Assembly: GCA_026874595.1 (NCBI GenBank)
Contig: CM049310.1
Coordinates: forward strand, 46,351,058-46,415,057
Length of the DNA stretch: 64,000 nt
Origin: Sipunculus nudus
Taxonomy: Eukaryota; Annelida; Sipuncula; Golfingiida; Sipunculidae
Reading direction: 5' to 3'
Under the pieces are notes generated by a model that was given only the letters and a program-made list of their open reading frames with translations, did not search any database and was not told the DNA's origin. Below are positions 13,811 through 63,102 of this stretch, piece after piece. The first letter of the stretch is position 1. Every line of letters starts with the position of its first letter. A program made the translations under genes and the position numbers.

Positions 13811-13859
13811 GGACCCCTGAATATTAATCCGAGGCCATCCACCATACAACATACTCGTC

Positions 13860-15179
13860 ATGGCCATTCTAATAGCACCAGAGCGACTCAGAGACTTGCA
13901 TATCGCAGAATTGAGATGGCGGCTGAGAAAGATTGACAGAAGACAGTTGCTGGTGACTTCCCTGCTGCTTGAAGAAGACCAGCGTGCTCAACAGAAGCGA
14001 AGAAGACGGACTTGTTGGGTGCGGCCATGGTTGCAGCGAAGAGTGCTACTCGGCCAGTACGACACCCTTATGGACGAGCTGCGGATGGAAGACCGTGGGG
14101 GCTTTAAATCCTTCCTACGGATGGATTTCGACATCTTCCTTCATATACTGGGGAGAGTGGCGCCCCGCATCACGAAGTGTCAGAAGAACCGAGCGCCACT
14201 AAGCCCGGGTATCAAACTTGCCATCACCCTGAGATTCCTGGCAACAGGAATCTCATACCGAGCGCTGGGGTTCAACTTTCGGGTGGCACACAACACCATA
14301 TCGCTGTTTGTGCCGGAGGTGTGCCAGGCCATAACTGAAGAGTTCAGAGAAGAACAGTGGACCACCCCCAGCACCGAAGAAGAATGGGAGGAAGTTGCCG
14401 AGAAGTTCAGCACCAGATGGAACTTCCACCATGCCTGCGGGGCTTTGGACGGGAAACACATCCGCATCCAGAAGCCAAGGAAGTCGGGCAGTCTCTATTA
14501 CAACTACAAGGGATTCTTTTCGATCGTGCTGCTGGGCCTTGTTGAAGCCGAGTACAAGTTCCTCTGGGTCAGCGTGGGGTTCCCTGGATCGTACTCAGAC
14601 TGTGGTGTCTTCAATAGGTCTCTATTAGAGCCTGGACTTCGACTGGACACCCTCGCCTTCCCCAGGCCGAGCCCCCTGCCCCACGACGACAGAGACATCC
14701 CCTATTTCCTCGTCGGTGACGACGCATTCCCCCTTCGGACGTTTATGATGAAGCCATATCCGGACAGATTACTGGATCACGACCAACGCATCTTCAACTA
14801 CCGGTGTTCACGGGCCAGACGCGTGGTTGAAAACGCTTTCGGCATTCTGGCTGCCCGGTTTAGATGTCTTCACTCATGCCTGTGGGTTGAACCACAAGTC
14901 GCTGCGTGGATGACAAAGGCCTGTGTGACCCTCCATAATGTGATGCGTGACCTGTGCCCTGCCATCGCTGCAAACGAAGTGGACGTTGAGCTGGAAAACG
15001 GGGACATAATACCAGGGGCATGGAGAGATGCTGGAGTTTTGGAGGAGATTCGTACAGAGGGACGTGGGCCACGACAGACTGTACAGGGAAAAGAACTGCG
15101 CGCATACCTCAAGGCCTATTACAACAGTGACGTTGGCAATGTGCCATGGCAGGAGGCAGCCATCGCACCACGTGAATGA
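13860..15179 (+). CDS. Harbinger-type DDE transposase (intact, 439 aa)
   Basis: This is the DDE endonuclease/transposase that would excise and insert the surrounding element in the nucleus. The frame is uninterrupted from ATG 13860 to TGA. Features: a basic N-terminal stretch (QQKRRRR, 45-50), a helical helix-turn-helix-like region at about 115-155 (LSPGIKLAITLRFLATGISYR), and a DDE_Tnp_4 core with ALDGKH (D197), NYKGFFS (215-221), GSYSDCGVF (D247), GDDAFPL (287-292) and VENAFG (E324). The length is normal for the family. The triad is probably D197, an Asp in D247 or D287/D288, and E324. No frameshift or stop is present. The codon use is GC-richer than the host genes here. Mobility would normally need the MADF partner encoded opposite. 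Confidence 0.95.
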   Translation: MAILIAPERLRDLHIAELRWRLRKIDRRQLLVTSLLLEEDQRAQQKRRRRTCWVRPWLQRRVLLGQYDTLMDELRMEDRGGFKSFLRMDFDIFLHILGRVAPRITKCQKNRAPLSPGIKLAITLRFLATGISYRALGFNFRVAHNTISLFVPEVCQAITEEFREEQWTTPSTEEEWEEVAEKFSTRWNFHHACGALDGKHIRIQKPRKSGSLYYNYKGFFSIVLLGLVEAEYKFLWVSVGFPGSYSDCGVFNRSLLEPGLRLDTLAFPRPSPLPHDDRDIPYFLVGDDAFPLRTFMMKPYPDRLLDHDQRIFNYRCSRARRVVENAFGILAARFRCLHSCLWVEPQVAAWMTKACVTLHNVMRDLCPAIAANEVDVELENGDIIPGAWRDAGVLEEIRTEGRGPRQTVQGKELRAYLKAYYNSDVGNVPWQEAAIAPRE

Positions 15180-17398: not shown

Positions 17399-17794
17399 CT
17401 GGAAACACAAGCACAAAATTTGTTATCAGTGTTTAACGGCCTACCAATAACTAGGTCATATAAGTAAAATAGGTAAACAATACCAAAACCGGCAAGACAG
17501 TGCCAAACTGGCGCAAAATGCAAAAGAAGAAAGTATTCAAGGCAAAAAATGAAACGGTCTCACAAAGGCCGAGCACCGCCCCTCGCTTGCATCTCTCCCA
17601 TGCAAGCTAAGCAAATGATCCAGCGGTATGTGGCATCCCTTGCAGGCAAGAGAGAATGACGAACCCCACTTCCCACTGCTAGAAGAAAGAAAACATCATC
17701 TGCCCAACACCTGTCACCTTGGTAACAGGTTTTATCAATGTGAAGAATTTAACTCCAGTAATTAATTTGCAAACTTGTCCTGGCTAATCCTTAC

Positions 17795-18298
17795 CCGTCC
17801 AAGCTCTGTGTCTTGGTTGCTGCAGGCTCCGTTGCGGCTGTACGGCTCGAGGAACTGGAAGGCCCTCAGCTTCCACTGTTGTTTCTGCGTCAATTTCTTG
17901 GCCCCAGATCCGCTTTTCCCTTTCTTGAGTTGAGCTTTAATCTTGCCGTAATCGGTCCGCAAGCTTTTGAACCTATTCCATATCTTGTCTCCCGTCCAGC
18001 CTTGGCCAAGCGTCGAAGCAAATTCGGCCAGGGTGTTGTCCCTCCTCTTTTTGTCTTTATAGGACTCGTGCGTCAGGTCATAGTAGAAACTGTTCTGTTC
18101 GAAGAACTCACATATCTTCTCGTCGATATGTTGGGCTCCCTTGGTTTCCTCTTCAGAATCCTCCTTCACATCGTGAGTAGGCACGGGCTCACTCTCGTCG
18201 TCGCTGCTGCTGCTGCTGGGTTCTCGCTGGGGCTGGGGCTCTGGTCTCTTGCGCTTTGGGGCTGGCGCCTTGTCCTTTCCCTTGCCTTTAGGGGGCAT
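17795..18298 (-). pseudogene. Harbinger MADF-partner gene, exon 1 (MADF domain)
   Basis: Starts at ATG 18298 and ends after 168 codons at donor CGG|GTAAGG. The N-terminus is basic and Lys/Pro-rich (PPKGKGKDKAPAPKRKRPEP), then a Ser/Asp/Glu stretch. From about residue 60 to 150 there is a MADF/Myb-like DNA-binding domain (ICEFF..N..YYDL…YKDKKRRDNTLAEFA…GWTGDKIWNRFKSLRTDYGK). In Harbinger elements this partner binds element ends and helps import or recruit the transposase. This exon is intact; the lesions are in exons 2 and 3. Intact, the protein would be about 433 aa. Confidence 0.8.
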
Positions 18299-18369
18299 CT
18301 TGCTGGAAGGAAATGGTCGATAATAATGGTTGATGGTACACTTTGTAGTGATACGAGAGCAATCTAGGT

Positions 18370-18752
18370 TTATATATCCAACCGGTAACCAGACTGCCGC
18401 TGTCAGATTATCGGGCGGGCGCCGGCCGGTGGCAGTTAGAACGCCCGATTGTTGGCCGGTGGCAGGTGTAAATGGCCGGTGTCCGCCAGGTCACCGGGAG
18501 TTGGCAGGTAAAATCTGACGGCTGCCGGCCTGTCGCCTTACTGCCACCGGCCAACACCCTGATGACGTCACACACCCCCTCGAACTTAGACACTGCCTTG
18601 GGCCGCCCGGAGCCCGTCAGGCGGCCTTTTACTGGCAGTTATTTATGACCACTCGCACCGATTTGCAAAAAATCGGCCGGCGGCATGTAACTTTAAGAAT
18701 CCGCCGATGTCTAAAAATCGGCAGGCGGTAGTTTCACATTGTGACCGTAGCA
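18370..18752. repeat. Right terminal and subterminal region of the Harbinger element
   Basis: Clustered CCGGCCGGTGGCAG / GGCCGGTGTCCGCC-type motifs run into the inverted end, which reads outward ...GTGACCGTAGCA and then TAA. The motif class matches the left end. Confidence 0.7.
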
Positions 18753-23754: not shown

Positions 23755-24747
23755 TTAGGGTAAATCTTCTTCGTTAGTGTCTTTACTTTCAAGGAGAGGT
23801 TTTGGGGTTGAAAAGTTGTCCCATAATTTTGACACAAGCTCCGCTACAACAATTTCATTCGAATTCAGAGCAACAAGCCGGAGAAGCAGGACGCCATCTT
23901 GTCGTAAATATTCGTGGACAAATTCCTTGCATTTCTTTATGTCTTGTGCCTCTCCCTTTTTCATTCTGTCTTTGGCGCGCAAATGCCGTCTGACGTATTG
24001 TAACTGGTAAGCCCGAAGAGCACACATAAGGGTCCACTTAAAGACGCTGTACAGGGAAGCGATTGCCACTAATACAAGCCAGAACCATACGAAAATATAG
24101 ATTTTCTCATTAAAAAGATTGATCGGGAGTACACATTGGACGTTGTATTCATGATTATTTCCAAGAACTCTGACTTCGAATTTACACATGGTCACACGCG
24201 GGAACATTGAGGAGGCGACAAAATTTTCACCATTGAGAAGCGCGCGTAACACCTGAATACCGTACATATGGTAATCATTTCCAAGGAAGGCATTTAAGGC
24301 AAAAAGTTGAACCACAACGTTGATAAGGTAGAATAATTTAGTTAGAATATAAAGAAACACCAAATAGTTACCATAACGACGCCCACAAACTAAACAATTA
24401 CGCCGAGATAAATACTGTTTCAGCCCAACTAGACAGCCCTGTCGAAAATCCCGTTGTGCCACCAGGTAGCGCTCCATTTGCGCTGCCATAAAACTAACGG
24501 TTTTATCCATGGTTTCCGTGTATGCAGTGTGCTGAACTGTCATGGCGGACTCCACAATGTTGTTAACGTCAATGCCCAATCGGTTATTCATGAAACGCCA
24601 AACCATACAAGGGAAATAGAAGAACAGAGCTTGAACTAACAGTATCATAGGAACCCACTGGTAATACGTGATGTACTGTTCACGTTCAACTGTGTCCGGT
24701 AACTTCTCACGCAGAGGCACGTAATACGTGTTTGACACCCAACAGAC
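23755..24747 (-). CDS. Innexin 1, coding exon 2
   Basis: Gap-junction/hemichannel subunit of the plasma membrane. The exon opens after cag at an acceptor (24748-24749) with VCWVSNTYY and has 331 codons including stop; joined to exon 1 it gives 400 aa, a normal innexin length. In the joined protein: loop 1 Cys54, Cys56 and Cys72; the family signature YYQWVP at 98-103; TM2 about 101-122; cytoplasmic loop; TM3 about 197-220; loop 2 Cys258 and Cys275 in FPRVTMCKFEVRVLGNNHEYNVQC; TM4 about 284-306 after LPINLFNEKIYIF; a cytoplasmic tail of ~95 aa ending DTNEEDLP. Splice phase is 0. The methionine-initiated frame from 24762 reads into the intron and is not the true start. No lesions. Confidence 0.96.
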   Translation of the reverse strand, partial: VCWVSNTYYVPLREKLPDTVEREQYITYYQWVPMILLVQALFFYFPCMVWRFMNNRLGIDVNNIVESAMTVQHTAYTETMDKTVSFMAAQMERYLVAQRDFRQGCLVGLKQYLSRRNCLVCGRRYGNYLVFLYILTKLFYLINVVVQLFALNAFLGNDYHMYGIQVLRALLNGENFVASSMFPRVTMCKFEVRVLGNNHEYNVQCVLPINLFNEKIYIFVWFWLVLVAIASLYSVFKWTLMCALRAYQLQYVRRHLRAKDRMKKGEAQDIKKCKEFVHEYLRQDGVLLLRLVALNSNEIVVAELVSKLWDNFSTPKPLLESKDTNEEDLP

Positions 24748-25303
24748 CTGAAAACAAAACAAAAAATACCCGTGAACACATAAATCAGTTCAATTAACCT
24801 GACCATTGCACAAAATACCAACAGAGTTTGTCATAAGATTTAACATAAACTGATAGCTTGCATCTAAGTATTGATTTTGCGAATGGTGCCAGAACGACAA
24901 AGAAAAATATTTAAACTGAATCCTGATAAAGGACAACAGTAACATCACATAAACGAACAACCTATTAAAAGGTCATTATATTTCTCTATAGACGGAATGA
25001 TCTTACGGTGATAACTGCCACATGATCCGATTTTATTTTATTTTTTAGACCAATGGCTTGTGTTCTTTTTTTATAGCCCCGACCTGGTCATAGACCAAGA
25101 AACAGTTTCAATATGCGATTGATTTGTTACAATACTTACGGACGGATTTAGAATTTTAATATAAAATGAAATATCTGCATATACAGTCTTGAAATTTAAT
25201 TTCACGGTCAAATTAAATTAGAAAAATTAACAAAGTGCTCGTTGATTTTTATGTTCCTAACATGTATTACTTAATGGTCAGAACTGTAACATAGTAAATT
25301 TAC

Positions 25304-36351: not shown

Positions 36352-37344
36352 TTAGGGTAAATCTTCTTCGTTAGTGTCTTTACTTTCAAGGAGAGGTTTT
36401 TGGATTGAAAAGTTGTCCCATAATTTTGACACAAGCTCCGCTACAATAATTTCATTCGAATTCAGAGCAACAAGCCGGAGAAGCAGGACGCCATCTTGTC
36501 GTAAATATTCGTAGACGAATTTCTTACATTTCTTCATGTCTTGTGTCTCGCTCTTTTTCATTCTGTCTTTGGCGCGCAAATGTCGTCTGACGTATTGTAA
36601 CTGGTTAGCCCGAAGAGCACACATAAGGGTCCACTTAAAGACGCTGTACAGGGAAGCGATTGCCACTAATACAAGCCAGAACCATACGAAAATATAGATT
36701 TTCTCATTAAAAAGATTGATTGGGAGAACACATTGGACGTTGTATTCATGATTATTTCCAAGAACTCTGAATTCGAATTTACACATGGTCACACGCGGGA
36801 ACATTGAGGAAGCGACAAAATTTTCACCGTTGAGAAGCGCGCGCAATACCTGAATACCGTACATATGGTAATCATTTCCAAGAAAGGCATTTAAGGCAAA
36901 AAGTTGAACCACAACGTTGATAAGGTAGAATAATTTAGTTAGAATATAAAGAAACACCAAATAGTTACCATAACGACGCCCACAAACTAAACAATTACGC
37001 CGAGATAAATACTGTTTCAGCCCAACTAGACAGCCCTGTCGAAAATCCCGTTGTGCCACCAGGTAGCGCTCCAGTTGCGCTGCCATAAAACGGACGGTTT
37101 TATCCATGGTTTCCGTGTATGCAGTGTGCTGAACTGTCATGGCGGACTCTACAATGTTGTTAACGTCAATGCCTAATCGGTTGTTCATGAAACGCCAAAC
37201 CATACAAGGGAAATAGAAGAACAGAGCTTGAACTAACAGTATCATAGGAACCCACTGGTAATACGTGATGTACTGTTCACGTTCAACTGTGTCCGGTAAC
37301 TTCTCACGCAGAGGCACGTAATACGTGTTTGACACCCAACAGAC
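36352..37344 (-). CDS. Innexin 2, coding exon 2
   Basis: Near twin of innexin 1: with exon 1 the two 400-aa proteins differ at about 15 positions by my alignment. Nine of these fall in residues 317-385, the cytoplasmic tail (for example KKSETQDMKKCKKFVYEY against KKGEAQDIKKCKEFVHEY). The signature, the loop cysteines and the DTNEEDLP end are all conserved. One change lies inside loop 2 (KFEFRVLG instead of KFEVRVLG). The acceptor is cag at 37345-37347 and the 548-bp intron closely resembles that of innexin 1. No lesion. Confidence 0.96.
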   Translation of the reverse strand, partial: VCWVSNTYYVPLREKLPDTVEREQYITYYQWVPMILLVQALFFYFPCMVWRFMNNRLGIDVNNIVESAMTVQHTAYTETMDKTVRFMAAQLERYLVAQRDFRQGCLVGLKQYLSRRNCLVCGRRYGNYLVFLYILTKLFYLINVVVQLFALNAFLGNDYHMYGIQVLRALLNGENFVASSMFPRVTMCKFEFRVLGNNHEYNVQCVLPINLFNEKIYIFVWFWLVLVAIASLYSVFKWTLMCALRANQLQYVRRHLRAKDRMKKSETQDMKKCKKFVYEYLRQDGVLLLRLVALNSNEIIVAELVSKLWDNFSIQKPLLESKDTNEEDLP

Positions 37345-37892
37345 CTGAAAAAAATACCCGTGAACACATAAATCAGTTCAATTAATCTGACCATTGCACA
37401 AAATATCAACAGAGTTTGTCATAAGATTTAACATAAACATATAGCTTGCATCTAAGTATTGATTTTGCGAATGGTGCCATAACGAAAAAGAAAAATATCT
37501 AAACTGAATCCTGATATAGGACAACAGTAACGTCACATAAACGAACAATCTATTAAAAGGTAATTATATTTCTCTATAGATGGAATGATCTTACGGTGAT
37601 AACTGCCACATGATCCGATTTTATTTTATTTTTTAGACCAATGGCTTGTGTTCTTTTTTTATAGCCTGGACCTGGTCATAGACCAAGAAACAGTTTCAAT
37701 ATGCGATTGATTTGTTACAATACTTACGGACGGATTTAGAATTTTAATATAAAATGAAATATCTGCATATACAGTCTTGAAATTTAGTTTCACGGTCAAA
37801 TTACATTAGAAAAATTAACACAGTGCTCGTTGATTTTTTATGTTCCTAACATATATTACTTAATGGTCAAAACTGTAACATAGTAAATTTAC

Positions 37893-43868: not shown

Positions 43869-44861
43869 TTAGGGTAAGTCTTCTTCGTTCGTGTCTTTAC
43901 TTTCAAGAAGAGGTTCTTTGGTAGAGTAATTATCCCATAATTTTGACACAAGCTCCGCTACTACAATTTCATTTGAATTCAGAGCAACAAGCCGAAGAAG
44001 TAAGACGCCATCTTGTCGTAAATATTCGTGGACGAATTTCTTGCATTTCTTTATGTCTTGTGCCTCTCCCTTTTTCATTCTGTCTTTGGCGCGCAAATGT
44101 CGTCTGACGTATTGTAATTGGTCAGCCCGAAGAGCGGACATAAGGGTCCACTTGAAGACGCTGTACAGCGAAGCGATTGCCACTAATACAAGCCAGAACC
44201 ATACGAAAATATAGATTTTCTCATTAAAAAGATTGATTGGTAGTACACATTGGACGTTGTGTTCATGATTATTTCCAAGAACTCTGACTTCGAATTTACA
44301 CATGGTCACCCGAGGGAACATCGAGGAAGCAACGAAGTCTTCACCGTTCAGAAGCGCGCGCAACACCTGAATACCGTACATATGGTAATTATTTCCAAGG
44401 AAGGCATTCAAGGCAAAAAGCTGAGTCACAACATTGATAAGGTAGAATAATTTAGTTAGAATATACAGAGACACCAAATAGTTACCGTAACGACGCCCAC
44501 AAACTATACAATTACGTTGAGATAAATACTGTCTCAGCCCGGCGAGGCAGCCCTGTCGAAAATCTCGCTGCGCCACGAGGTAGCGGTCCAGTTGCGCTGC
44601 CATAAAACGGACGGTTTTATCCATGGTTTCTGTGTATCCCGTGTGCTGAACTGTCATGGCGGACTCTACAATGTTGTTTACGTCAATGCCCAATTGGTTG
44701 TTCATTAAACGCCAAATCATACAAGGGAGGAAGAAGAACATAGCTTGAACTAACAGTATCATAGGAACCCACTGGTAATACGTGATGAACTGTTCACGTT
44801 CAACTGTGTCCGGTAACTTCTCACGGATAGGCACGTAATACGTGTTTGACACCCAACAGAC
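43869..44861 (-). CDS. Innexin 3, coding exon 2
   Basis: 331 codons including stop, starting VCWVSNTYYVPIREK after acceptor cag (44862-44864). It is more diverged from innexins 1 and 2 than they are from each other, including TM2 (ILLVQAMFFFLPCMIWRLM), the cytoplasmic loop (FRQGCLAGLRQYLSQRNC) and loop 2 (NNHEHNVQC). All signature residues and the acidic C-terminal end are kept and no lesion is present. Its 648-bp intron contains insertions of repeat families A and C (44938-45297) that are missing from the introns of innexins 1 and 2. Confidence 0.95.
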   Translation of the reverse strand, partial: VCWVSNTYYVPIREKLPDTVEREQFITYYQWVPMILLVQAMFFFLPCMIWRLMNNQLGIDVNNIVESAMTVQHTGYTETMDKTVRFMAAQLDRYLVAQRDFRQGCLAGLRQYLSQRNCIVCGRRYGNYLVSLYILTKLFYLINVVTQLFALNAFLGNNYHMYGIQVLRALLNGEDFVASSMFPRVTMCKFEVRVLGNNHEHNVQCVLPINLFNEKIYIFVWFWLVLVAIASLYSVFKWTLMSALRADQLQYVRRHLRAKDRMKKGEAQDIKKCKKFVHEYLRQDGVLLLRLVALNSNEIVVAELVSKLWDNYSTKEPLLESKDTNEEDLP

Positions 44862-44937
44862 CTGAAAACAAAACAGAAAATACCCGTGAACACATACATC
44901 AGTTCAATTAACCTGAACCATTGCACAAAATACCAGC

Positions 44938-51876: not shown

Positions 51877-51942
51877 GAATTTGGCACAGTATCTACGGTT
51901 AATGTCAATAACGTAGATTCCGCCAGTTGCACTGCTCATTAT

Positions 51943-54900
51943 ATGTCAACCACTTGCACTGATGTGATAGTTAATCTTGTTCCTGACGATATTCTTTCCC
52001 TAGTAAAGCCGATTCGGTCTAAAGTTACAGCCAACTCTAAACTAGAGTCAAAAGTGACACAATCGGAAATATCAAGCACGAACTTGTCTCCTACATTAAA
52101 TGGAGCTTTCAACGATGACCATAATTTGAATGTCTCATCCCCATGCAGTGAAGTTAAGCTGCCTCCTCCGCGATCTCTTTCTCAGTTAAATGTATTAAGC
52201 TCACAAAATTCTAAGTTATCACAAGACTCACCCATATATACAACACATTCGAAGTCAAATATCCTTGTTTTTCATTTGAATGTACGTAGCCTACTCCCAA
52301 AATTTGAACAGATCGAAGATCTGTTACATAAAAAGCGTATTGACGTACTATGCCACAGTGAAACCTGGTTAGACGACACAGTATGTGATAACGAGTTATC
52401 AATCTCAGGTTTCAATATGTTTAAAAGACATCGTAACTGGCACGGAGGGGGTTTAATAGTGTATACAAGGGACCACCTCACCTCAACATTTGTGCCCGAT
52501 TTACATATGGATGATATCGAAAACCTATGGATTAATATTAAATGTCCCCGCAAGGGCTCCTTTCTTATAGGCGCTTTTTACCGCCCTCCCTCCGCTCCAA
52601 CCAGCTTCTTCGAATCTTTGTCAATAGACATTGAACATTCCGCTATGCCTAAACATTATTTTAATCGGAGATTTTAACACTGACTACATGAACGATAATC
52701 ACCACAACCCACTAAAGTCCCTATGTAACCTCTTTGATTTAGAGCAGCTAATTGATGAACCTACTCGTGTGACTCAAACCTCTTCAAGTACTATCGATTT
52801 AATTATAACATCCAACCCACAAAATCATAAATTCTTTGGAGTGTATAAAACCTCCCTCAGTGATCAATATGCAATATTTACTAACCTTCAATTTGAATCT
52901 TTGCATACAAAAGATGGGTTACATCACACATACCTTCGACGATCATACAGGAAATTTAATGAAATAGCCTTCCTTGATAACTTAAATAGGATAAAACATT
53001 TACTCATCCGCATCATACTCACTGCATCTGATGTAAATGATGCATGGACTCTCTGGAAAGAAGCCTTTCTCTACGCTTGTAATAAGCATGCACCAATCAG
53101 ACAAGTCAGAGTAAAATCTCAAAAACCTTGTTTTATTGACAACGAAACTCGAGAAATTATGAGGCAACGTGACTTCATGCATAAAAAATGGCTCAAAAAC
53201 AACATTGAGACGGATTTAGTTATTTATAAACAACTTCGAAATTTAGCTAATATTAAAATCAAACAACATAAACGTAGATTTTATATGACTAAGATAGGCA
53301 AAACTGGTATGAACCAGAAAAAGATATGGAACGCTGTAAACAGCATCTTAAAGAAAGCTCAGAATAGCAATGATCTCCGGCACATTAATATTGAAGAAAC
53401 GGCCAAACACTTTGCTGATGTTGGCCTTCTACTTTCTGATAAATTTCCTTCATCATGCGCGCACAGCTTTGACATCCAAACATCGTCCAGTAACTTTGAA
53501 TTTAATCTCATAACCTCCTCTCTAGTACAGCGGTTTCTAACAAGCCTTTCTTTCGAAAGTAAAATCGATGCCAACGGCATAGATTCCAAACTGGTGAGAA
53601 TAGCCTCACATATATTTTGCGTCAGCTTAGCCACCTTATTTAATCGGTGTATTAGTGAAGCTACCTTCCCCACTGAATGGAAATCCGCAAGCATCACTCC
53701 AATATACAAAGGTAAAGGATCCAAGGAAGATATTAATAATTATCGGCCTATTTCTGTTCTTCCCCATTTAGCATGCGTATTTGAAAAGGTTCTACATGCT
53801 CAAATTCTATACCACTTAAATCAACATGACATAATAACACATAATCAACCTGCTCTCTTGAAAAAACATTCGACTCAAAAAAGTTTACATAAAGTTGTGG
53901 ACAACTGGCTCCATGCAATTGATACTAAACGTTTCACAGGGGCTTGCTTCTTCGATCTCAAGAAATGTTTCGACACCATCAGTCATGACATTCTCTTAGA
54001 AAAAATAAAACAATACGGTTTCCATGGTAAATCACATGAACTGATTAAGAACTATCTCTCCGATAGATCTCATGCTGTAAAAAAAGATAACGCAGTATCT
54101 TCACAGCATCCTGTGAAAATTGGAATACCCCAAGGTTCTGTATTAGGACCCATATTATTTTTAATTTATGTAAATGATCTTACTGGAAACACTGGCAATT
54201 GTCAATGTAATCTTTTTGCAGATGACACCATTATTTACTATACAAGTAATGATCCTAACAAAATTAGACAGGAACTTCAACACGGCGTCACTACTTTATC
54301 TAAATGGATTTATAATAATAAGCTCTCAATCAATATAGAAAAAACATCAACCATCCTCTTCAGATCCCGTTCTATGGAGACTTTAGACCTTAATATCACA
54401 GCATTTGACCAGCCCATCAAACGATCTAACAGTATCACTTACTTGGGGTTAGTACTTAATGAAAACCTAACATGGTCGGATCACTCTGAACAAGTATGCA
54501 AAAAGCTCTCGTCTAAAGTAGGTGCCCTCTTCAAGTGCAGTCGATACATACCTCAAGACACCGCATTGAAAATTTACACTGGCCTCAATCAGCTACATAT
54601 TGACTACGGCCTCACAATCTGGGGAAATGCGCCTTCTTCATGTTTTACTCCCATTCAAAGTCTTCAAAATCGAGCCGCACGTATTATAAGTCGCAATTTT
54701 AATCCTGAATGTAGCTTAACAGCTATCCGTCAGTCCCTTTGCATTAAATCAGTTGAACAACGACATGAATATTTGACTCGCATCCTTATGTTTAAAAGTC
54801 TGAATAACCTAAGTCCATCCTATATGACCGACCAGTTCACGTTTGTTCGCCAAGTCCACCAACATGATACACGTAATAGCTATTCCAATAAATTATATGT

Positions 54901-55156
54901 ACCAAACCTCGGACAGACTATTCTTAAAGAAATCATTTTTATGCCGAGGTCCTATTTTGTGGGACACATTAAATCAATCTCAAAGAAACTGCTCCTCCTT
55001 ACAGGTCTTCAAAAAAAAGTATCATGTAATAAACCTCTGTTCTTTATATGTCATATATTGCATGCTATTTCAAACTCTGTTATATTTCATATTTATGTCA
55101 CACTCATGATTGCCTTGTATATAACATACATGTCAGAGTTTTATATTCATGTTTAA
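51943..55156 (+). pseudogene. CR1/L2-like LINE, ORF2 (endonuclease and reverse transcriptase)
   Basis: ORF2 nicks the target and reverse-transcribes the RNA. Endonuclease motifs: HLNVRSLLPKFEQI, LCHSETWL, GGLIVYTR, GAFYRPPS and IGDFN. A frameshift near 52645-52665 separates the frame at 51943-52677 from the frame at 52631-55156. The final endonuclease motif reads SDQYAIF, with Gln for the catalytic His. Reverse transcriptase follows: NNYRPISVLPHLACVFEKVL, FFDLKKCFDTISHDIL (motif A), IPQGSVLGPILFLIYVNDL (motif B) and FADDTIIY (motif C, about 54214-54237), then the thumb and C-terminal region. The finger motif NQPALLKKHSTQ departs from the usual GFR form. The combination suggests an old, inactive copy. 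Confidence 0.9.
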
Positions 55157-58292: not shown

Positions 58293-60568
58293 GCATTTCC
58301 TAGAATTTCTTAGATTTCTAGTTATTACTCAATAAGCGTCCTTCATAGAATAACACAAATATTCTTCCTTATACTCTTGCAAAAATGGTAGTAATTTTTT
58401 TTATATACCCCCATAATAAAGTATTTATTATTACATCTGAACTTTGAACTAATCACGTCTGTTTATACTGTGTATAAGATTTGTTTCATTAACCTTTTAG
58501 CTGAAGCCTTGTATACAAAATATCTTCATATCCTACTCTATGCTATGAAATAACATAACATTTTAATGCTCCAAAGAAATCCGATTCTCATGACCTTTTC
58601 AGATTAAAAATGTAAATTTGCAGATTACAGCCCACTCTTGTCATGGCAACAAGAATTAAAAATCCATTTTAAAGATTTTAACCTTTTTGTTATATGCAAA
58701 GGAATGTCACAGGAAATATGTTATGATTCTACAACATACACATCACATAACTATAAATATAAACCTATCACAATGCATTACTTCAGGAAAAAAAATAGAA
58801 ACCTATCACATGCACTGACTATGAAAATGCTGACTGACACTATATATTGGCACAAATTGGAAATTAAGCTATAATATATTAACTTTCTTTCGTTGGCACA
58901 CAGGAAATGGAAAAATAAATTACTCTTGAAGGAATCCTTATCCTTTCGAAGCAACGACAAAATGATAATTTACTGAAATAAGTCTGACAAACAAAACATT
59001 GCCTAAGACTATATAATCGTTGAACAGATAAAAAGAAATAAACCAATTTTACGGCTTTGGGGCCATTACAATGGTACAGTAACAAAATTTGTATGATAAA
59101 TATATAAATACATCGCCCTTTATGGATGACATACATTATAATCAATTTTTTATAAAACATTTTTTGTCATCAGTTTTTCGCCAAGCGTTTTCAAAATTAT
59201 GGTATAACAAAATACAAAATAATAATAGTAACAATATTATATAATGATAAGTTCTGAATCGAACAACGTTTTTCTTCTTGGCTCCCAGGAATATGGTCTT
59301 AGTAGATAAGCATAAGACCGGTGCATGTTTAAGTGCTGAAATATAAATCATATGCTTATTATTCATTATAAATACACATAATCATGGGCCCTGTTGGGGG
59401 GCACTTTTAAGGGTGGGGGCAAGGTACCCTTTTTCACCAATACTTTTTAGTCAAATCAAATAATTTTAAATTGTCAGATATTACCATCGACCAGTATACA
59501 GTTCCATGTTTTCAAAATAATCTTTTAATTATACATCTTCATAATGAGGCAAGAATATTGCATGCATGTATCAATAGCCTCAGTGAGTTGTCATAAATGT
59601 TAGCTTATGTTTAATTCAAATGTAAATTATGAATAATATAGTGGTGAAAATTGAGCAAAAATTATTTTTGTATATAATGAAAATATATATTTGAAAAGAT
59701 GTGGGGGGGGGGGGGTGAAGAAAATTATGACATTCTTGGGAGGGATTTTGTCCTGTTTGTCAAAAGACGGGGTGTTGTCTGGAGATTTCAAGCGGGTATC
59801 CTTATTTCTGGGGGGGGGGGGGGGGGTTGAGGGTTGGCGGCGCTTTACGGTCGCCCTTACATTTACTCAGCAAACAAGGTCCATTCATTGAATACATCCG
59901 AGCAGTAAGAAAATGAGAAATTTATATTAGAACGCTTTAGTATAATAACGGCTCTGTGTGCCACAATTCTTATACTAACAATCATGGCAACGTGTTTGGG
60001 CACGCGGACACTGACAATGGGAGGTCGCCACTTGTTAAATACATACAGCCAGGCACCGTCCTGGGCTCAACTATTAGTCTCCGGTGACATATAGCTCTAA
60101 GCAGTTTTCACCTGTAAACATGCACGTCTGCAATGTATATAAAGCACAAATACACGTTAACACGGATATTATGCTGTCACAAATATCATTTCGAAATTGA
60201 TTAATAATAAAAGATATTAAAAGCCTATCTTAGTTTTCAGCACCTGTTATCACAATATATTATGGGTATATATGTTTTATAATATGCGTGGTACTTTATA
60301 TATCTATTTCTATCAATTAGTATATCTTTGACGTATATGTGTACCAAAGCTCTGCAGATGACATGAGTATATAAAGTGTAATAACTGCTGTATATTTAAT
60401 AACAATTATATATATAATATAATATAATATAATATAATTATATATAATTATGAATAATAATTTATACATGTATATAATTAACACCTGACGAAAAAGCCTG
60501 TGCGCTTCGAAAGCTCGTGTGTTAATAAACAAGTTAGTCTGTCTATCAGGCGTCACTCTTTCTCTTTA

Positions 60569-60570
<2 letters not shown>
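58293..60570. other. Gene-free stretch with homopolymer G runs
   Basis: Two long G-runs lie at about 59703-59715 and 59811-59826. At 60482-60530 a segment cctgacgaaaaagcctgtgc followed by gcttcgaaagctcgtgtg and aataaac resembles the conserved stem-loop tails of retroelements, but no reading frame accompanies it. No host gene is supported. Confidence 0.4.
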
Positions 60571-60617
<47 letters not shown>

Positions 60618-60634
60618 CTATATATACATATATA
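60571..60634. repeat. (TA)n microsatellite left of the ribozyme element
   Basis: TA tract with small interruptions (ctatatatacatatatata) that runs up to the left arm of the inverted-repeat element at 60635. Confidence 0.9.
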
Positions 60635-60821
60635 TAGCTAAATTTAAGGCACGTTGGAGCATCGAGTTATCACTACCAAACTGTGCAAAAAGAGAATAGC
60701 AGCAACAATTGGGTCCCCCACAAGCGTCAGTTATCTGATGAGCGCCCGGGTGCAAGGCCGACTACGGCGTGAAAACTCGGGAGTAATAACTCGATGCTCC
60801 AACGTGCTTAAAATTTAGCTA
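60635..60821. mobile_element. 187-bp inverted-repeat element carrying a hammerhead-like motif
   Basis: The left arm 60635-60670 and right arm 60786-60821 are 36-nt inverted repeats with two mismatches (tagctaaattt...gcatcgagttat). The interior of ~115 bp contains the ribozyme motif adjoining the right arm. TA-rich sequence lies on both sides. There is no coding capacity. It could be a MITE, or part of a ribozyme-bearing retroelement (retrozyme or Penelope-like terminal structure); the sequence alone does not decide. Confidence 0.7.
60726..60795 (+). ncRNA. Candidate type I hammerhead ribozyme
   Basis: Self-cleaving RNA motif. Order on the plus strand: stem I strand GUUAU (60730-60734); core CUGAUGA (60735-60741); stem II GCGCC (60742-60746) pairing with GGCGU (60766-60770), closing pair G-U, with an optional inner CGG/CCG; core GAAA (60771-60774); stem III ACUC/GAGU (60775-60778 and 60781-60784) with a GG loop; U then A (60784-60785) as the cleavage dinucleotide; stem I strand AUAAC (60786-60790). 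Outside stem I an internal loop and a further GCGU/AUGC helix are possible, as in natural type I hammerheads with tertiary contacts. Oddity: stem III as drawn uses 60775 in addition to GAAA, one A more than the usual core, which could be a bulge or a weakening mutation. Cleavage is predicted between 60785 and 60786. Confidence 0.65.
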
Positions 60822-60878
60822 ACCTGTTCTACCTCAGCTGTATAAAGCACTATGCTGCAAGCACTGAAACCTACTAAG

Positions 60879-60883
<5 letters not shown>

Positions 60884-60933
<50 letters not shown>
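60884..60933. repeat. (TA)n microsatellite
   Basis: About 24 TA units directly before the pogo-like MITE at 60934. Confidence 0.95.
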
Positions 60934-60937
<4 letters not shown>

Positions 60938-61117
60938 GAAACCTCGTTGTGTCGAACCTGCTTAAGTCGAATACCCCGCTTATGTCGAAGTTTCAGACTT
61001 GACGTTCCGGACAATTTTAATTAAATTATTACCAATTACAACCCGCTTGTATCGAACCTCGGATGTGTCGAAGTTTTCTAAGGGTCCCTTCGACTTCGAC
61101 ACAACGAGGTTTCACTG
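60934..61117. mobile_element. pogo/Tigger-like MITE (184 bp)
   Basis: The right end, reading inward, is CAGTGAAACCTCGTTGTGTCGAA. The left end is the same with one mismatch at the first base (AAGTGAAACC...). TA flanks both sides, the target of Tc1/mariner-pogo transposons. The interior has direct repeats of (t/a)gtcgaa. No transposase. It is inserted in a TA microsatellite. Confidence 0.85.
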
Positions 61118-61134
61118 TATATATATATATATAT

Positions 61135-61180
<46 letters not shown>
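61116..61180. repeat. (TA)n microsatellite
   Basis: Two TA tracts split by acaatata near 61136. Confidence 0.9.
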
Positions 61181-61184
<4 letters not shown>

Positions 61185-61485
61185 ACGGAGTTTTGTGCCA
61201 CGTTAGAGTATGCACGTAATTACAGTTATTATCATAGTATATATTACACTTTGTGTAACATTTAAACAAAAATCATGTGTACTTTGCGGTTAAACAAAAT
61301 CAATGAAACAAGAACCACATATTCAGAACGGATGCAAGGCTGACAACATTTGGAACAATATATACCATAAACTTTGTATACAATACAAAAACATTGTAAT
61401 ATATATCGCCACATATAACTCAACGGTTGAAATGAGCGCTGTATAAGTACTTCAGTAGCACTATACATGATTGGAAGTAGTTCGG

Positions 61486-62478
61486 TCAAGGCAAATCGTC
61501 TTCATTCGCGATATTTCGATGCAAGAGAGGTTTCTGGGTAGAATAATTGTCCCACAACTTTGAGATAAGTTCAGCTACCACGATTTCATTAGAGTTCAAA
61601 GCAACAAGTCTTAAAACAAGGACGCCATCTTGTCGTAAATATTCATTCACAAAACGCGCGCATTTCTTCTTGTCCTGAGCCTGTCCTTTTCTCATTTTGT
61701 CCTTGGCGCGCAAATGTCGTCTGACGTAACGTATTTGGTCAGCGCGGAGTGCGCAGTGGAGGATCCATTTAATGATGCCGTAAAGTGACGCGATGGCTAC
61801 AAACACAAACCAAAACCAGATAAAAATATAGATTTTCTCGTTAAAAAGATTAATTGGGAGTACACATTGAACGGTGTGTTGATGATTATTGCCAAGAACC
61901 CGAACTTCAAAATTACACATAGTCACCCTGGGGAACCGTGCGGAAGCAGCGAAATCCTCTCCCTTCAGAAGCGCACGCAGCACCTGAATACCGTAAAGAT
62001 GGTACCCAGTTCCAAGAAATGCGTCTAACACAAATAACTGAGACACCACATTGGCAAAGAAGAGACATTTCGTCATTATGTAAAGACATACTAAATAGTT
62101 GCCATAGCGACGCCCACAAACTAAGCAATAGTGTCGGGATAAATAGTGTTTACATCCAACACAACAGCCGTGACGGTAATCCCGCTGGGCCGCCAGGTAG
62201 CGCTCCATATGCGTTGCCATAAAGCGGATCGTTTTATCCATAGTTTCGGTGTATGCTGTATGTTGAACTGTCATGGCAGACTCCACAATATTGTTTACGT
62301 CAATTCCTGACCGGTTGTTCATGAAACGCCAAACCATACACGGGATATAGAAAAACAGCGCCTGTGTCAGCAGCAACATGGGGACCCACTGGTAATACGT
62401 GATGTAGCTCTCGCGTTCAACGTGGTCAGGTAACTTCTCACGTATGGGCACGTAATACGTGTTTGACACCCAACAAAC
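61486..62478 (-). CDS. Innexin 4, coding exon 2 (gene partial in window)
   Basis: 331 codons including stop, starting VCWVSNTYYVPIREK after acceptor tttag (62479-62483). It is the most divergent of the four but has the same exon length, the YYQWVP signature, loop 2 with Cys in VTMCNFEVRVLGNNHQHTVQC, and the LPINLFNEKIYIF stretch. Distinctive changes include extra cysteines in the cytoplasmic loop and TM3 (YRHGCCVGCKHYLSRHYC; VCLYIMTKCLFF) and a C-terminal HRNIANEDDLP. No first exon with the MDKLLG start is present up to 64000, so that exon, and the promoter, presumably lie beyond the edge. No lesion. Confidence 0.95.
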   Translation of the reverse strand, partial: VCWVSNTYYVPIREKLPDHVERESYITYYQWVPMLLLTQALFFYIPCMVWRFMNNRSGIDVNNIVESAMTVQHTAYTETMDKTIRFMATHMERYLAAQRDYRHGCCVGCKHYLSRHYCLVCGRRYGNYLVCLYIMTKCLFFANVVSQLFVLDAFLGTGYHLYGIQVLRALLKGEDFAASARFPRVTMCNFEVRVLGNNHQHTVQCVLPINLFNEKIYIFIWFWFVFVAIASLYGIIKWILHCALRADQIRYVRRHLRAKDKMRKGQAQDKKKCARFVNEYLRQDGVLVLRLVALNSNEIVVAELISKLWDNYSTQKPLLHRNIANEDDLP

Positions 62479-62483
62479 CTAAA

Positions 62484-63102
62484 ATGGACAAAACATGATG
62501 TATTAAACATGATTCTTTCAAAATTCGACACCACTAAGCTTCAAAATTTACCTTTATTTTTTAAGGCTGAAGCTGTCCGTTTAACCTGTGGTACTTGTGT
62601 GTAACGTACCAATTTTTAATGTCTTTATAATTACATCTTTAAGGCAACAAATCGACGGTTTATCAGCGCCATCAGGGGTCAAAGGAGAGCAAGAATCCAT
62701 GATGGAGACGTTCATTTTATATCTTGATAAAAGGAGCACCACAGTGCAATTTCTAGTTTTGGCATGATGTGTTAGGCCAGTCAATACTTTCATTACCTTT
62801 TAACTGAACTTTTCAATTATTTAACAATTTTGCCTAAAAGCAATTTTAAGATGATAAAATCTAAAGACAAATTAACCAGAATGAAATAAAGCACTTATCT
62901 TGTAAAATAAGCTTTTAATATAATTAGGTTGAAATTGGATAAAGATACTTCATAATTTTTAATAGCCTTCTACCTGTTTTATCTAAAAACTCTCCACATT
63001 CCTCATTTGATTTTTTTTTTTGCAATCTGATCTAACCCCATTATTCAAAATATAAAAATAGGTGTATGTGATAAGAAAATATTTTATATCACGTCTTTGC
63101 TG
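62484..63102. other. Probable first part of the innexin 4 intron
   Basis: AT-rich and without exon-like features. If innexin 4 has the same structure as the other copies, this is intronic, and the intron (over 1.5 kb) is much longer than the 0.55-0.65 kb of copies 1-3. Confidence 0.4.

Follow-up and report, generated by a model that had tools for sequence, protein, structure and literature searches.

Features of the locus

The window, that is, the whole 64-kb stretch of Sipunculus nudus DNA that was analysed, contains at 60723-60798 on its plus strand a hammerhead layout in full, with all parts in order. An inverted repeat is found at the same locus, 60635-60677 aligning with 60779-60821 at 39 of 43 identical positions. 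The features are as follows, with the basis of each in brackets.

60635-60670, minus strand: inverted piece of the element's 3' end, a copy of 60786-60821, forming the left 'terminal inverted repeat' (alignment, 9 of 40 copies)
60672-60699, plus strand: last codons and stop codon TAG (60697-60699) of the element ORF, the sole ORF remnant here (most of 40 copies match from 60672; frame by eye against L181 and others)
60723-60728 with 60793-60798, plus strand: outer stem I, AGCGTC/GATGCT (folds)
60729-60734, plus strand: AGTTAT, 5' strand of stem I (descriptor, fold)
60735-60741, plus strand: CTGATGA, catalytic core (descriptor, alignment of copies)
60742-60770, plus strand: stem II hairpin with a 19-nt loop (aligned copies)
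60742-60746 and 60766-60770, plus strand: GCGCC/GGCGT, strands of stem II (window sequence)
60771-60774, plus strand: GAAA core, with one extra A ahead of helix III giving GAAAA at 60771-60775 (majority GAAACT)
60775-60784, plus strand: helix III, ACT/AGT with a CGGG loop, ACTC GG GAGT (descriptor, fold, aligned copies)
60785-60786, plus strand: predicted cleavage between A60785 and A60786 (placed from the hammerhead layout)
60786-60791, plus strand: ATAACT, 3' strand of stem I, followed by a bulge (descriptor, fold)
60799-60881, plus strand: 3' end of the element and optional tail (from about 60822), then (TA)n (40 copies)

All the parts named for this site in the initial annotation are present on the plus strand, apart from its 2-nt stem III loop; because a loop of two nucleotides cannot close, helix III is read here as three base pairs with a CGGG loop. 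The additional outer helix that it had considered possible in stem I is matched by the pairing of AGCGTC with GATGCT. Read by eye in the window copy, CTGATGA starts 35 nt past the stop codon of the ORF. Comparison with the aligned copies described below reveals a G.U at the base of stem II in the window copy as against U.U in the family majority, and a stem II loop one base below the majority length.

Several other features are found in the same window. A second small inverted-repeat element adjoins the locus at 60931-61120, its arms (GTGAAACCTCGTTGTGTCGAA) matching at 25 of 26 aligned bases; its ends look to us like those of pogo/Tigger-type transposons, and a similar end lies beside another copy of the family studied here, L142. 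Four long innexin-like open frames, all on the minus strand (23755-24789, 36352-37377, 43869-44903 and 61486-62478), likely form a gene cluster, and both of the two submitted to Pfam matched Innexin, a family that points to an invertebrate source. Pfam also identified a DDE_Tnp_4 transposase frame (13821-15179, plus strand) and a MADF DNA-binding frame (17762-18490, minus strand), a pair that we presume to represent a PIF/Harbinger transposon, as well as a LINE-like pair of frames at 51877-55156 on the plus strand with a weak endonuclease match and RVT_1.

The likelihood of such a motif arising by chance was estimated with a descriptor composed after the candidate had been seen, which demands at least five base pairs in stem I, at least five in stem II and at least three in stem III, with at most one extra A. 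Its sole match on either strand of the window is the candidate, whereas order-1 random sequence is expected to give 1.9e-4 per window (38 matches in 25,472 Mb; an earlier random run gave three in 2,207 Mb), a figure that rises to 0.016 when the stem I requirement is dropped. A covariance model, R1, built from 14 hammerheads of viral contigs likewise placed its top score in the window on the candidate, at 19.3 bits (rough E 0.011) compared with 12.8 for the runner-up. As R1 matches at E <= 10 in 40 loci, including 30 picked for a hammerhead pattern, score between 11.8 and 71.5 bits (the matches not individually verified), the candidate lies in the low part of this range. Some of the viral contigs contain several hammerhead motifs according to the descriptor, namely eight in L071, seven in L121 and four in L018.

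The Rfam models, proposed in the initial annotation as a check, did not bear out the call. No hammerhead was reported in the window at the gathering level, nor in the 90 nt around the candidate at E <= 10, and at E <= 1 none of RF00163, RF00008 and RF02275 matched the window copy or the 19 other family members given, out of 40. Three sub-threshold hammerhead matches on the motif were obtained from 18 loci of more divergent relatives (L222 and L237 with RF00008, L226 with RF02275). The viral control motifs, too, mostly fall below the Rfam curated score, at which a single hammerhead was reported in 14 loci picked for a hammerhead pattern; relaxing the threshold to E <= 1 gave hammerhead matches in four of five such loci. 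Because most pattern-picked controls are missed at the curated score, this silence was not taken as a refutation.

Copies and divergent relatives in the genome

A search of the genome (1.43 Gb in 153 contigs) yielded 325 candidate copies, of which the best 40 were scored and aligned; apart from the window site itself, these are 39 copies with identities of 79-90%, and five partial matches were found in addition. A 27-mer of the motif occurs at 281 genome sites within three mismatches and its reversed pattern at none. As regards the conservation that the initial annotation had expected of a genuine ribozyme, CTGATGA and GAAA are both kept in 34 of the best 40 copies, the window copy counted. 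The family majority reads CTGATGA-TCGCC...GGCGT-GAAACTCGGAGTA; in this sequence the core lacks the extra A, helix III comprises 3 bp capped by a CGG loop, and stem II has a basal U.U. The extra A, regarded from the outset as the main weakness of the candidate, is therefore real in the window copy and absent from the family, GAAAA being found elsewhere among the 40 only in L147, where it arose by substitution.

The core columns are kept at 98%, the rest of the motif at 93.5%, the upstream sequence at 85.5% and the downstream sequence at 88%, and the two subfamilies differ at three of 75 motif columns (each in a loop or in the bulge), nine of 60 upstream and two of 25 downstream, both sets of figures including L161 as a misassigned copy. 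Across the 40 copies, the inner five pairs of stem I are paired in 93.4% of cells and the outer stem I in 92.7%. A strict three-stem test is passed by 13 copies; R1 at E <= 1 matched 23 at the motif, together with L162 at a second site, and the highest R1 score of the 40 belongs to the window copy. One pair of motifs on the same strand, 5.1 kb apart, was considered as a tandem element and rejected; because the intervening stretch does not match the element protein, it was taken to represent two insertions.

The better copies are open upstream of the motif and encode the end of a protein, which in L181 reads YIGLASGQFKTLYNNH...CNLCMEKK...LLNRRSELISKCRH. Searching the genome with this 109-aa protein end gave 2,647 candidates, of which the best 150 were scored, all at E <= 1.8e-20; some of these 150 have 44-56% amino-acid identity and open frames of up to 528 aa. 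The sequence 3' of the ORF was read in 26 relatives at this level of identity (six longer loci and 20 short stretches), which belong to a few types (L219-like, L215-like and L235) and are not independent events. The L219 type has GTCAC-CTGACGA-GCC.....GGC-GAAACCGACGGTC-GTGAC at 34 nt past the stop codon, the L215 type CACAT-CTGATGA-TTGCGGCAGCAT-GAAAACACGTGTTA-ATGTG at 54 nt past it, and L235 GTCAC-CTGATGA-GTGC..GCAC-GAAACCTGCGGGTA-GTGAC, also 3' of the ORF. The core is thus the same as in the window family, and the stems, assessed both by eye and with the descriptor, change in sequence yet still pair.

A strict hammerhead test was passed by 14 of the 26 relatives, compared with none of their 26 reverse strands and none of 52,000 order-1 random versions. 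Among the 12 failures, L231 and L233 pass once the test is loosened, L225, L227, L228, L230, L236, L237 and L240 have motifs that are broken by eye, and parts of the motif remain in L223 and L234; in L216, no motif was found in the 330 nt 3' of the ORF. R1 at E <= 1 found the motif in L219 and L220, and not in L215-L218. As a separate observation, the type comprising L215, L217, L218, L229, L231-L233, L238 and L239 shares the basal U.U of stem II with the window family, and the helix III loop of its members is mostly the palindrome ACGT or ACAT.

Taken alone, the window site is ambiguous, Rfam being silent, an extra A interrupting the motif and a rival fold being predicted as better; it is the other sites in this genome that, as far as sequence comparison goes, decide in favour of a hammerhead.

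The carrier element

Both of the longest frames fetched, those of L215 and L216, contain YRDDG and, near the C-terminus, a YIG...FK.RY..H..SF stretch, which we take to be a GIY-YIG-like endonuclease end. Matches to RVT_1 (E 0.0011 in L216 and 0.03 in L215) fall below the Pfam cut-off and concern the relatives only, the window copy having no reverse transcriptase. No GIY-YIG match was returned by Pfam for the ORFs of the family or its relatives, and nothing useful came from sequence searches of PDB and NCBIfam. The L185 protein had no matches in the plasmid collection and no confirmed ones among viral contigs in public collections. On account of the weak reverse-transcriptase match and the GIY-YIG-like end, the elements were read as Penelope-like, and most likely this is what they are. 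The hint at such elements in the initial annotation fits, and the tail and the TA-rich sites are in keeping with it: a longer tail is present in 12 of the 40 copies, and a TA run follows the element in 33.

An inverted piece of the 3' end lies upstream in nine of the 40 copies, the window copy included. Because these pieces vary in length and junction from copy to copy, the apparent terminal inverted repeats were attributed to the mode of insertion of a retroelement. Inverted terminal pieces are a trait of Penelope elements. Hence the repeats that had been described as bounding a small inverted-repeat element are genuine, and what lies between them is not an element of its own; the alignments identify it as a truncated retroelement copy that begins with part of its own 3' end in inverted orientation. 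A 17-mer from the repeat was found in one viral and nine prokaryotic contigs of public collections, which share little beyond the word, and in no phages, and is absent from the literature text searched; a second 17-mer was found in one viral contig, sharing that word alone. Judged by titles and the opening of abstracts, and by passages of PMC8490949, none of the papers found on the subject reports a hammerhead in a terminal-inverted-repeat element.

Taken together, these results favour, with a probability of roughly 0.87, the view that the site is the truncated and decayed 3' end of a retroelement, most likely Penelope-like, whose ORF is directly followed by a type I hammerhead. Cervera and de la Pena reportedly described the hammerhead motifs of Penelope-like elements in 2014. 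Their presence in the repeats of these elements is documented in PMC7761336, PMC6431247 and PMC11167929, as far as the available text of each extends. The partnership is therefore known from other animals, and the window holds a decayed hammerhead in a retroelement of known kind. Closest in the portion of the literature available is Poseidon of Anolis carolinensis (PMC11167929), where a type I hammerhead is similarly tied to a terminal repeat and an ORF, the latter encoding a reverse transcriptase, as it probably does here; a 3' tail that is optional and a preference for AT-rich targets are also shared. In Anolis, however, the motif overlaps the start of the ORF, whereas here it was placed relative to the stop codon only, 35 nt beyond it. 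Furthermore, the Penelope-like motifs described in the accessible part of PMC7761336 are minimal, without helix III or loop contacts, while those found here have a 3-bp helix III.

Predicted folds and competing interpretations

Structure prediction does not by itself select the hammerhead. The best predicted fold at the candidate is a different hairpin, 11.6 kcal/mol below the hammerhead, and a transcript with both inverted repeats is predicted to form one long hairpin, to which the hammerhead is inferior by 28 kcal/mol. For comparison, the hammerhead lies within 1 kcal/mol of the best structure in 106 of 117 distinct viral motifs, a figure that is biased because the pattern used to pick these motifs called for a strong stem II. 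Elsewhere the gap between hammerhead and best fold is predicted to be 5.2 and 9.6 kcal/mol in two further copies of the window family, 1.9 in L219, 0.7 in L235 and 5.0 in L215. Pair changes within the family show no excess over shuffles among the 40 copies, and are uninformative on covariation.

It is conceivable, if rather unlikely, that in the window family the rival hairpin is the conserved RNA, for instance as a protein-binding or priming signal, with the ribozyme an ancestral relic there. This would be consistent with the greater predicted stability of the hairpin in all 40 copies (median gap 10.6 kcal/mol), with the equal retention of the two structures (91.9% of cells paired for the hammerhead, 91.6% for the hairpin), with the basal U.U of stem II and, in what is available of PMC11167929, with the in vitro insertion of Anolis elements whose hammerhead had been mutated. 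Against it, no columns are kept better than those of CTGATGA and GAAA, which surpass the rest of the motif, and the changes between subfamilies land in the loops of the hammerhead. An improbable alternative turns the same hairpin into a regulator: the hammerheads behind the ORF would form a class in which helix III is a genuine 3-bp stem, and in the window family the stable, conserved hairpin would block the ribozyme until the element protein or a dimer copy refolds it, such that the motif would be protein-gated and under selection rather than a relic.

Very little can be said for a non-LTR retrozyme, a mussel-like tandem array of short non-coding repeats that contain type I hammerheads. Such repeats occur in molluscs and many other invertebrates according to the available text of PMC7229834, which describes metazoan forms resembling the motifs studied here in their type I layout and short helix III, and, in axolotl HHR_Amex2, in the basal U.U of helix II, which also occurs in two of the element types found here. 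Nevertheless, everything that TRF detected at 59500-62500 is A/T-rich with a period of 2 to 30, tandem non-coding units being absent, and the motif sits after an ORF. Least credible is the reading initially suggested by the inverted repeats around the candidate, a small DNA transposon of the non-autonomous MITE kind, bounded by terminal inverted repeats of 43 bp and TA target sites, with an imperfect palindrome that only by chance has the hammerhead layout: the similarity of the repeats (39/43), the TA on both sides, the more stable rival hairpin and the silence of Rfam would fit, but the left repeat is missing from most other copies, which extend upstream into the ORF, the variable inverted pieces of nine copies do not amount to the same two terminal repeats across copies, and the core is kept in relatives whose stems differ.

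Under the preferred interpretation of a decayed Penelope-like 3' end, the plus-strand RNA of intact members would fold stems I and II and the 3-bp helix III around the core, with cleavage predicted after UA, or UC in some relatives. The cut may serve to trim transcripts of the element at its terminal repeat, perhaps assisted by the element protein, a proposal made because the Poseidon hammerhead, in the text available from PMC11167929, cut only when protein was added and its mutation did not block insertion in vitro. The window copy, with its extra A and altered loops, probably no longer cuts; the extra A need not be fatal by itself, since one hammerhead variant can tolerate an insertion in the GAAA region (PMC3088659, in the part available).

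This locus represents a case in which a ribozyme call missed by the Rfam models was settled through genomic copies and divergent relatives. A 2020 review, in its available text, calls the role of hammerheads in Penelope-like elements unknown (PMC7761336), and the four natural stem variants found here with one type of ORF in a single genome provide a ready set with which that role may be probed.
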